NCBI RefSeq assembly: GCF_017963645.1
Contig: NZ_JAGMWN010000003.1
Span: 62,001-126,000, forward strand
Source: Marivibrio halodurans
GTDB lineage: Bacteria; Pseudomonadota; Alphaproteobacteria; UBA8366; Aestuariispiraceae
Length of the DNA: 64,000 nt
Reading direction: 5' to 3'
Of this stretch, positions 3,153-50,844 are shown piece by piece (position 1 is the stretch's first letter; every line of letters starts with the position of its first letter). The position numbers and the translations under genes are program-made. Under the pieces are notes generated by a model, which had not been told where the DNA came from, did no database searches, and saw only the letters and a program-made list of their open reading frames with translations.

Positions 3153-3211
3153 TCAATGTAGGGTGATCGAAGGGGCGGGATCCGACGGGATATCCCGCCC
3201 CTTTTCCCCTT

Positions 3212-3350
3212 ATACCAAATCTTGCTGATCACGCCCCATGCGGATCGCGTTCGGCTTTGGTCGGGTGGGAAGGGTGGCGCGGGCGATGCGCTCCTGGCCG
3301 AGAACCCGGGAGGGACGTCCCCATGGGTCGTGATCAACAAGATTCGGTAT
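3212..3350. repeat. Palindromic repeat element, family A copy 1
   Basis: A 139-base element between two convergent genes. Left arm 3212-3240 and right arm 3322-3350 are inverted repeats of 29 bases with three mismatches; the outer tip reads ATACCAAATCTTG. The inner right part carries GCGCTCCTGGCC, the reverse complement of GGCCAGGAGCGC. The same body and arms recur at 49548-49720. The right tip is the first base of the TTA (TAA) stop codon of the GNAT gene. It could be a small non-autonomous mobile repeat that also works as a bidirectional terminator. Confidence 0.85.
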
Positions 3351-3853
3351 TACCCGTCCAAGTCGATGACCATGCGGAAATTGGTCAGCGCTATTCCATG
3401 GCGCACCGGCCGTTGCTCACGCAGCACATGCCAGCCCCGCTTCTCGAAGAAACGCCGTGCCAAATGACTGGCATCCGTCGTCAGGCGGCGGAGCCCCGAC
3501 GTTCGCGCAACGCTCAAAACCGCATTATAGAGTGCATCCGACACGCCGGTCCCGAACCGATCCGGCCGGACATAAGCAAGGTCGATATGCCCCGCGTCGG
3601 TCAGGCTCATGAAACCGAGCGGATCGCCCTCCCCATCCTCTTCATCGTCCGAGGCCGCCAACTCGACCGCGATCAGCGTGGTCATGCTGCCCAGGCGCGC
3701 CGCCCATTCCGCCGTCTCCGGCGGAGCCGGCGCCCAGGCGGCGAGCTGTTCCTCGGAATAGGCCCCGACGGCGCCCTCGCGGATGCTGGCATGGAAGAGA
3801 CGCGCGGTCGCCGCCGCGTCGTCGTCCGGACGGAAACGGCGGATATGCAGCAT
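3350..3853 (-). CDS. GNAT family N-acetyltransferase
   Basis: A 167-residue GNAT protein starting MLHIRRFRPDDD, which matches the usual first beta strand of this fold. The acetyl-CoA loop is VRPDRFGTGVSDALY, a degenerate form of the Q/RxxGxG/A signature, and the C-terminal FFEKRGW segment is typical. An acidic insert (ASDDEEDGEGD) interrupts beta strands 3-4. The longer open frame would add 39 Arg/Gly-rich residues unlikely to be translated. It acetylates an unknown amine substrate. Its TAA stop codon abuts the palindromic element at 3212-3350. Confidence 0.85.
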   Translation of the reverse strand: MLHIRRFRPDDDAAATARLFHASIREGAVGAYSEEQLAAWAPAPPETAEWAARLGSMTTLIAVELAASDDEEDGEGDPLGFMSLTDAGHIDLAYVRPDRFGTGVSDALYNAVLSVARTSGLRRLTTDASHLARRFFEKRGWHVLREQRPVRHGIALTNFRMVIDLDG

Positions 3854-9895: not shown

Positions 9896-9973
9896 TGGGG
9901 TGGCTGATCGGGTTCGAACCGACGACCTCCTGGACCACAACCAGGCGCTCTAACCAACTGAGCTACAGCCACC
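9896..9973 (-). tRNA. tRNA-His (anticodon GTG)
   Basis: The minus strand reads as a complete cloverleaf: acceptor GTGGCTG pairing with CAGCCAC, D-arm AGCTCAGTTGGTTAGAGC, anticodon arm CCTGGTTGTGGTCCAGG with GTG anticodon, T-arm with GGTTCGAACCC, and an encoded CCA end. A genomically encoded extra 5' G (position -1) faces the C73 discriminator, the identity element for histidyl-tRNA synthetase. Confidence 0.97.
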
Positions 9974-38185: not shown

Positions 38186-38199
38186 CCCAAAGGCGCGTT

Positions 38200-38342
38200 A
38201 GAGCCTGATGATATGATATGGCCCCATCCGAGACGCCGCTTTCGGTTTTCCGGCTAGGAGCGCCGCGCGCGCCCTCTCCCCATGGGGCCGTGGGCCGGAA
38301 ACCCGGAAAACGATCTCGGACGGGTCCATATCATCATGCTCT
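38200..38342. repeat. Palindromic repeat element, family B
   Basis: A 143-base imperfect palindrome between convergent genes. Left arm begins AGAGCCTGATGATATG at 38200; the right arm, read backwards from 38342, begins AGAGCATGATGATATG. The left arm has an extra ATATG. The arms continue with GCCCCATCCGAGA versus ACCCGTCCGAGA and further CGGTTTTCCGG-like pairing. The inner box GGCTAGGAGCGC at 38252-38263 matches the box in the elements at 3212 and 49548. Its right tip overlaps the TAG stop codon of the LysE gene. Confidence 0.85.
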
Positions 38343-38967
38343 AGTGCAGCCGCGTCGTCAGGATCTTGAGGCCGGCCGCGGCGAAGGCGAGCGCGAATAC
38401 CGCCTCGAACCACCGGCGCAGGCGCAGATAAAGCCCCGCGACGCGGGCGCTGGAGAACAGCAGCGCGTAGCCGTGGAAGATCACGCAACTCTGCAACCCC
38501 ACCGCCAGGATGACGGTCACGAGGGTCGCGGGTGACGCCCCGGCGGGCACACCGACGGCGTAGAGCGCCCCGAAGAAAAGGATCGCCTTCGGGTTGGTGA
38601 GGTGCAGCAACACCCCCCGGCCATAGAGCGCGGGACGCGACGGCGCCCGGATCGCGCGGGTGGCGAGCGCGCCGTCCCCCAGCGCCGCGCGCGCCGACTT
38701 CACCGCCAGGAACAACAGATAGAGCGCCCCGGCATAGCGCAGGATCTCCAACATCCAGGCATTGGCGAGCATGACCGCCCCGAAGCCGAGCGCCGCGACG
38801 CAGGACCAGATCAGCGATCCCGTCATGATCCCGGCCGCGAGGGCCAATCCGGCGGCCCGTCCAGCGGCCATCGACGTCCCCGCGAGGGCGAGGGTCGCGG
38901 GGCCCGGGCTCGCCGACGCGATAAGAGCCGCCCCCAGGATCAACGAAAGATCGACGCCCTCCACCAT
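38341..38967 (-). CDS. LysE-family amino-acid exporter
   Basis: A 208-residue membrane protein with about six hydrophobic segments. The N-terminal ASASPGPATLALAGTSMAAGRAAG is the LysE/RhtB signature and NPKAILFFGALYAV the second conserved motif. It should export amino acids or related small molecules; substrate unknown. Its stop codon lies inside the tip of the palindromic element. Confidence 0.9.
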   Translation of the reverse strand: MVEGVDLSLILGAALIASASPGPATLALAGTSMAAGRAAGLALAAGIMTGSLIWSCVAALGFGAVMLANAWMLEILRYAGALYLLFLAVKSARAALGDGALATRAIRAPSRPALYGRGVLLHLTNPKAILFFGALYAVGVPAGASPATLVTVILAVGLQSCVIFHGYALLFSSARVAGLYLRLRRWFEAVFALAFAAAGLKILTTRLH

Positions 38968-49498: not shown

Positions 49499-49547
49499 GG
49501 GCGGGTCACGTATCCCCTCCCCGTCTCACGGAGGGGAACGTGCCCTT

Positions 49548-49720
49548 ATACCAAATCTTGTTGATCACGCCCCATGAGGATCGCGTTCGGCTTTCCCCTG
49601 AACGGACGGAGGCGGGCAGGAAGAGACGCGCGGGCGATGCGGGGCATCGTCCAAGCCGCGCTCCTAGCCGAGAACCCGGAAGGGACGTCCCCATGGGGCA
49701 TGATCAACAAGATTTGGTAT
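49548..49720. repeat. Palindromic repeat element, family A copy 2
   Basis: A 173-base element between convergent genes. Left arm 49548-49576 and right arm 49692-49720 are 29-base inverted repeats with a single mismatch. It shares arms and body segments (GGATCGCGTTCGGCTT; GCGCTCCTAGCCGAGAACCC; AGGGACGTCCCCATG) with 3212-3350 but has about 34 more bases in the centre. The right tip is the first base of the TAA stop codon of the AI-2E-type permease gene, as in copy 1. Confidence 0.88.
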
Positions 49721-50844
49721 TACCGTCCGGATGGAGTGATCTTGCCTTCCGCGGATAACAGGATCGCGACCGCGCGGGTCGGCCGGAACTGGGCGCAGAT
49801 CAGCATGGCGATCACGACGAAGGGGATGGAGAGCACCATGCCGACGATCCCCCAAATCGAGCCGAAGACCGCGAGCGCCAGCAGAATGACCAGCGGGCTC
49901 AGATTGAGCGAACGCCCCATCAACTTCGGCTCCACCACATTGCCGACGGTAACCTGAACCGTCGCCAGAACGCCGAGCGTCACCACGAAATAGATCGGGT
50001 TCGAGAACTGGATCAACGCCAGCACCGAGGGGAAGGCGACCCCCACCAGCGAGCCGATATAGGGGATGTAGTTGAGCACGAAGATCAACACCGCCCAAAA
50101 CCCGGCGAAATCAACCCCGACGGCCGCCATCACGGCATAGCTGACCAGACCGGTGATCGCGCTGACCAGCGTCTTGAGGCCGATATAGCGTTGGATGTCG
50201 CTGGCGATGCGGCGAACCGTATCATGTACCGTGTCGGCATGATGGCCATCGCGAAACAGAGCGTTGATCTTGGACCGGAAGGTCGCCTGTTCCAACAGGA
50301 TGAAAACGACATAGAACAGAATCGTGAAGATGTTGCCGGCCACCGCCGTGATCTGGGACGCGGCCGTGCGCAGAACGCTCGCGACATCCACCTCCTGCGC
50401 CAGCGACCGGACACTCGGCAACGCGTCGATGCCGAGCCGGACGGTCGCCTTTTGCAGCAATGCCTGAACGTTCTCCTGATATTTCGGGGCACGCTCGGTC
50501 ACATCGGCGATATTGCTCGCCACGATATCGCCAAGCAGCACCACGCCGCCGACCACGATCAGGATGGCGAGCCCCATGCCCGCCCAGAAGGGCATGCGCG
50601 GGGCACCCGGCCAGGGCTGGCAGAAGCGTGCCGCCATGCTGTCCAAAAGGATGACGATGAAGACGGCGATCACGAAGGGCAACAGGATCGACTGGCCGAC
50701 CACCATGCCCACGATGGCGAGCGCCGCCAGCCCGCAAGAGGCGAAAACCGCCAGCACCCCGGAATGGCGCCGGGCGCGCTTCGCTTCGTCATCCTCGCCG
50801 GGGACCAGCGGCGGGGAAGCCGGAAACTGGCCATCATCGCTCAT
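49720..50844 (-). CDS. AI-2E family transporter (PerM type)
   Basis: A 374-residue membrane protein with seven or eight predicted spans. LPFVIAVFIVILLDSMA near the N-terminus and the C-terminal FVLNYIPYIGSLVGVAFP plus VEPKLMGRSLNLSPLVILLAL are the family signatures. Members include AI-2 exporters and Na+/H+ antiporters; function here is open. ATG at 50844 follows AAGGGGGCAGGG. The C-terminal stop codon abuts the palindromic element. Confidence 0.9.
   Translation of the reverse strand: MSDDGQFPASPPLVPGEDDEAKRARRHSGVLAVFASCGLAALAIVGMVVGQSILLPFVIAVFIVILLDSMAARFCQPWPGAPRMPFWAGMGLAILIVVGGVVLLGDIVASNIADVTERAPKYQENVQALLQKATVRLGIDALPSVRSLAQEVDVASVLRTAASQITAVAGNIFTILFYVVFILLEQATFRSKINALFRDGHHADTVHDTVRRIASDIQRYIGLKTLVSAITGLVSYAVMAAVGVDFAGFWAVLIFVLNYIPYIGSLVGVAFPSVLALIQFSNPIYFVVTLGVLATVQVTVGNVVEPKLMGRSLNLSPLVILLALAVFGSIWGIVGMVLSIPFVVIAMLICAQFRPTRAVAILLSAEGKITPSGR

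Follow-up and report, generated by a model that had tools for sequence, protein, structure and literature searches.

Internally deleted copies of a probably IS630-mobilised transposon with a class-wide double-hairpin core in Marivibrio halodurans

Among the repeats described for bacterial genomes, the IS630-family MITEs are one of the groups closest to the elements of the present study. RUP of Streptococcus pneumoniae, as portrayed in the relevant sections of PMC2229807, is likewise small, gene-free and intergenic and has IS630-like terminal inverted repeats; unlike RUP in that account, the present element is flanked by 3-bp TNA triplets (not TA) and has an inner double hairpin that is conserved across the class and arms that differ between lineages. 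The REP/REPIN/BIME sequences of the GTAG super-family, in the parts of PMC3733652 and PMC2817692 drawn on here, share with it a TAGGAG foot, a hairpin with CGA opposite, head-to-head dimers, G-T pairs in the stem and an intergenic location. In contrast to these, the present hairpins are about 100 nt long, have two stems and lie inside transposon arms with target repeats, and the genome contains no RAYT. CIR elements of Caulobacter and other alphaproteobacteria are about 110 bp long with GANTC at a loop and two unpaired ends, according to a passage of PMC2229807, and are similar, by description only, in being alphaproteobacterial and intergenic and in having two long inverted repeats with a linker; the core consensus, on inspection, shows no GANTC. 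RIME of Rhizobium, a mosaic intergenic element of alphaproteobacteria according to a title cited in PMC2873474, is alike by name alone.

The window, by which we mean the whole stretch of 64,000 nucleotides of the M. halodurans genome that was analysed, contains two related palindromic sequences that occupy, with their flanking triplets, positions 3210-3352 (copy 1) and 49546-49722 (copy 2). An earlier note on this stretch had placed both copies correctly, and its description of terminal inverted repeats, of a length difference of about 34 bases (exactly 34) and of the absence of a transposase from both copies holds. The 29-nt arms of copy 1 (3212-3240 and 3322-3350) are unequal at three positions and those of copy 2 (49548-49576 and 49692-49720), as had been stated, at one only. 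With up to 2 mismatches allowed, the window contains four occurrences of the tip ATACCAAATCTTG, a number reached in none of 100 shuffles (mean 0.29). Folding of both strands, which the note had proposed, gave structures far better than those of shuffled sequences, with z-scores per strand of -4.6 and -7.5 for copy 1 and of -8.7 and -7.8 for copy 2. Just upstream of copy 1, at 3170-3203, lies a perfect 12-nt inverted repeat (AAGGGGCGGGAT / ATCCCGCCCCTT) that is possibly the terminator of the preceding gene.

What the note had missed is the longer double-hairpin parent element, the core of which is conserved class-wide. The full element measures about 265 bp and consists of terminal arms of about 30 nt around two hairpins that are inverted, head-to-head. 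The full-length copies reveal this layout and show the window copies to be internal-deletion derivatives, fused between the two inverted hairpins of the longer element. In copy 1, aligned with the full-length copies L014, L015 and L020, the left target triplet TTA (3210-3212, a direct TNA repeat with 3350-3352) is followed by the left arm (TACCAAATCTTGCTGATCACGCCCCATG; 3213-3240, plus strand) and by the 5' half of hairpin 1 (3241-3289, plus strand), which comprises stem P1, the TGGGAAGG loop and the start of the apex and is broken off at GGGCGATGC. Through the internal deletion it is joined to a remnant of hairpin 2, the TAGGAG side in the alignment (3290-3321, minus strand), and the right arm (3322-3349, minus strand) and the right TTA triplet (3350-3352) follow. 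Copy 2 begins with TTA at 49546-49548 and continues with the left arm (49549-49576, plus strand), the 5' part and apex of hairpin 1 (GCGATGCGGGGCATCG; 49577-49658, plus strand), which meets hairpin 2 at GCCGCGCTCC, a remnant of hairpin 2 (49659-49691, minus strand), the right arm (49692-49719, minus strand) and TTA at 49720-49722. This remnant includes the CTAG that serves as the nesting site of another element in two copies discussed below, and a weak match to our covariance model R1 covers 49614-49664 (21.7 bits, E 0.015). A third element of the window, at 38199-38343, had been overlooked; it has other ends, of CTAG type (TAGAGCCTGATGATATG ... CATATCATCATGCTCTA), and a related, shortened core with an R1 match at 38231-38317 (23.8 bits).

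The designation as a two-copy element is right within the window; genome-wide there are about 23 A-type elements. The note would have taken a lack of further copies in the genome and its relatives as evidence against a mobile element, and such copies were found on searching both. In the 4.18 Mb genome (22 contigs), the window copies gave 111 BLAST matches, the tips matched at 51 places at up to 3 mismatches (reversed control: none) and R1 matched at 41 places at E <= 0.01. The A-type elements into which the matches group are 98-340 bp long and gene-free. Contig starts truncate two of them, and pairwise identity among three full-length copies is 95.5-96.6%. A genome of the same genus (G001) contains related elements with an altered tip. 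The more distant genomes G022 and G032 have only the inner block in common at the sensitivity of that search, in which 4 of 59 genomes matched, and the elements of G022 carry TACCA arms of their own. No A-type element was found in plasmids. At the one locus where an empty site was sought by comparison, the flanking genes are not adjacent in relatives and gene order is not kept.

Target duplications and a transposase with matching ends, both of which the note had suggested looking for, are present. Identical TNA triplets (TTA, TAA, TCA or TGA) flank 12 of the 15 own copies in which TNA can be read at both ends, against a permutation mean of 4.6 (p 5e-5), and the triplets of the other three are unequal; L005, L007, L018, L021, L023, L026, L029 and L061, with one end missing or degenerate, are omitted from this count. 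The tips of these MITEs (TACCAA...TGATCA..GACCCATG) match those of an IS630-family insertion sequence, the right ends of which, read inward as TACCAA......TTGATCA..ACCCATG, resemble the MITE arms. This IS with TACCA tips is intact in outline in G001 (L123) and is also found on plasmids of Sphingobium and others, and its transposase is recognised by DDE_3 (PF13358, 4.1e-28) and by the NCBIfam IS630 model NF033545 (9.9e-45). Nine of the ten IS copies with both ends read are flanked by identical TAA or TTA triplets (p 0.02) and one by unequal triplets; L315 and L323 lacked a readable left end. The canonical target duplication of IS630 elements is TA, whereas MITE and IS alike show 3-bp TNA here. 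Four of the IS copies (L318, L320, L321 and L322) are palindromic outside the triplets too (e.g. C-TTA...TTA-G and TG-TAA...TAA-CA), a hint that palindromic targets are preferred.

We assume that the arms of about 30 nt are recognised in trans by a DDE transposase of the IS630 family, which would insert the element at TNA and duplicate these three bases. No intact cognate transposase was found in the own genome (contigs C12-C14 read N), only the decayed IS copies L121 and L122 and the cut ends L073 and L074. The latter two, at the ends of contigs C7 and C18, both stop about 75 bases inside one IS630-type end (TACCAACTCTCGCTGATT...). With two contigs breaking off in the same IS630-type end, the assembly may lack an intact IS. 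Remnants of IS5-type transposases were set aside as partners, the TACCA end pattern being found in neither L086 nor L087, and a core within an IS was sought in 18 loci that contain IS630 or IS5-type elements, with no R1 match.

With genes called heuristically, the neighbouring genes are convergent for 17 of 32 own copies, tandem for 12 and divergent for 2, and one copy is unassigned. The convergent share would suit a transcription terminator or a stabiliser of mRNA 3' ends domesticated by the host. We regard such a role as quite improbable, as any insertion that avoids promoters would give the same gene context, many copies are decayed and the window copies have no T run after their arms. The insertion site is often a stop codon (TNA being TAA, TGA or their complements). 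Targeting of stop codons was rejected, as this applies to 6 of 13 reconstructed empty sites when 5.3 are expected from TNA availability; three of 16 sites, inside a called gene, had been dropped.

Each hairpin of the core features a long, fully paired outer stem P1, an internal loop formed by TAGGAG and CGACGC, a stem P2 and a GATGCGGGGCATC-type apex. Of 41 modules listed, 34 from four genomes were aligned and seven that are partly deleted or fold badly were omitted. The stems of the 34 are variable, with two-sided changes in 26 of 34 pairs, and the loops TAGGAG / CGACGC are conserved; the conservation of loop and apex arises partly from the selection of rows, CGACGC being part of no selection pattern. 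The rows of this alignment (A1) were selected by the apex pattern CGATG.{5}CATCG, and the constancy of helix 3 is for this reason given by construction; the pattern for the scan of named records used AGGAG and GCGATG. The covariation score amounts to 0.589 compared to 0.197 after shuffling and was reached in 0 of 500 shuffles, and 92.5% of the pairing cells are filled by pairs; shuffling lowers this to 69.9% and sliding to 42.3% or less. L145, an element with unrelated arms, has the same folding plan (z = -21). In L102 of G032, both sense hairpins are on one strand (1378-1476 and 1481-1579) and not inverted.

Covariation of this strength would also be expected of a non-mobile sequence, either a conserved RNA gene or a segment of some gene, the very case that the earlier note had named as speaking against its own reading. 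We consider this highly improbable, since it is contradicted by the dispersed copies, the TNA repeats and the terminal arms; in addition, Rfam gave nothing above threshold in the window copies or in eight loci, only two sub-threshold matches to mir-2005. The sole Rfam match across the window is a tRNA gene at 9899-9972 on the minus strand. In the literature searched for GATGCGGGGCATC and three variants, these strings appear in one unrelated paper.

At E <= 0.001, R1 has matches in 37 of the 385 class genomes searched, which by count of the table represent 24 families. A search across the phylum at E <= 1e-5 gave 6 of 398 genomes, every one from this class, in a set whose share of genomes from other classes the listing does not give. 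Most of the matches listed in a scan of named records by pattern belong to alphaproteobacteria (Rhodospirillales, Kiloniellaceae and others), including Afifella pfennigii, Tistlia consotensis and Labrenzia sp. The pattern, though not the model, was also matched by two 'Stahlbacteria' contigs, which were discarded, and viral contigs contained no exact match to the pattern. Among the best 150 rows of a search in 91 chosen loci, at least one of which is present twice, there are at least 59 inverted double-hairpin elements. Within these rows, 57 of the 59 have arms of about 30 nt as measured by script, with spacers of mostly 3 or 5; by our own count, 35 have TACCA tips and 24 other tips, the latter of at least a dozen kinds by eye, most of them starting with CTAG or TAG. 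The arms are thus wholly different between lineages in these elements, while the design of the core stays constant.

How ends could be swapped is suggested by two A-type elements, L003 (C11:731200-731539) and L023 (C16:341146-341467), each of which contains half a CTAG-type element joined at a CTAG within the A core. Apparently, a CTAG-type element was nested at this CTAG, followed by recombination in the shared core. Plasmid searches with three CTAG-type arms revealed no cognate IS, and no transposase was present in two stretches of the own genome that harbour solo CTAG-type ends and whose ORFs were listed.

Asymmetric pairing within the stems points to one strand being read. In 58 clusters (<80% identity), the inner 18 pairs comprise 88 G-U and 7 A-C pairs, a share reached in 0 of 1000 shuffles, whereas the 11 pairs of the outer stem in the same clusters comprise 14 G-U and 9 A-C pairs. 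Per genome (n = 53), G-U exceeds A-C in the inner stems of 40, with 12 ties and one reverse case; for the outer stem the corresponding numbers are 11, 32 and 10. Note that each hairpin was oriented by its loops and not by G-U pairs; a given hairpin obtains a much higher score in sense than in antisense. Partners on the plus strand prefer their own sense by 108 to 9 and those on the minus strand theirs by 105 to 7, related sequences in these counts being not fully independent. This suggests that reading of the inner stems is single-stranded and always in one sense, as RNA or as ssDNA; tolerance of G-U could fit both equally, and the strand-sense test does not separate them.

The outer stem, almost perfectly paired and free of a G-U excess (14 vs 9), is what one would expect of a DNA palindrome that is corrected as such. 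On this basis the family could be an ordinary MITE in which the arms alone matter and the inner palindromy is maintained, functionless, by template switching between the arms in replication; the persistence of both window copies with most of the core deleted is in agreement with this. We hold it to be unlikely, because it leaves unexplained both the conserved unpaired loops across unrelated arms and the ratio of 88 to 7 in one sense in the inner stems.

The tag at the foot of the hairpin is GTAG-like (consensus GGnUAGGAG, of which AGGAG was in the scan pattern), with a literal GTAG in hairpin 1 of some copies and a literal CTAG in hairpin 2 of several. The sense motif TAGGAG-CG...CG-CGAC is close to the REPs GTAGGAGCGCACCtGGGCGCGAC of Xanthomonas and TGTAGGAGCGGCCTTGcGTCGCGAA of P. 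putida W619 shown in an excerpt of PMC2817692, and head-to-head dimers, G-T stem pairs and REP dimers inside long palindromes are all described in the sections of PMC3733652 used here. The core could then be a REP/REPIN-like ssDNA target, that is, head-to-head REPs of the GTAG type that were once moved by a RAYT (HUH/Y1) and later trapped in IS630-type MITEs, and the strand sense would suit ssDNA as well as RNA. We find this rather doubtful, as there is no Y1_Tnp match in the own genome despite 41 module matches, and no module near 10 loci that carry Y1_Tnp; on the same two grounds a REP transposase was rejected as the mover. Y1_Tnp is present in 16 of 40 core-positive and in 8 of 40 comparison genomes, a weak difference with a comparison set that is not fully screened and includes at least one core-bearing genome (G011). 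Of the earlier description as MITE-like or REP-like, the first part stands by the copies, the terminal inverted repeats, the TNA duplication and the IS630 partner; the second applies to shape and motif and does not extend to a REP transposase.

We favour, as the probable explanation, that the palindromes of the window derive by internal deletion from a non-autonomous transposon of about 265 bp, the arms of which would be recognised by an IS630-type transposase and the class-wide double-hairpin core of which is probably read as RNA. The core would be an old module of the class that travels on several IS630-type ends, flanked by TNA or CTAG, with arms that change by recombination within the shared core. 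As the hairpins point in opposite directions, the element offers one of them in sense in either orientation, and we infer that the role of the inner hairpin is most likely exerted as RNA in transcripts running through the element. It is conceivable, although we would not bet on it, that the family is a structured selfish lineage of the whole class, with an inherited core and exchangeable ends: a REPIN-like RNA or ssDNA module without a REP transposase of its own that acquires the ends of whichever IS630-type transposase is present.

The elements are a real MITE family, and what is new is the covarying, class-wide double-hairpin core on different IS630-type ends. A usual MITE has conserved ends and a disposable inside; in the present family this is reversed. 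With 26 covarying pairs, no Rfam entry and matches in 37 of the 385 class genomes, the core suggests an unrecognised structured RNA or ssDNA motif. The finding bears on a question left open in the part of PMC3733652 that deals with it, namely how REP-type repeats spread without a linked, dedicated transposase. For annotation, many of the palindromes between genes in alphaproteobacteria, and many breaks between contigs of their assemblies, may be due to such elements.
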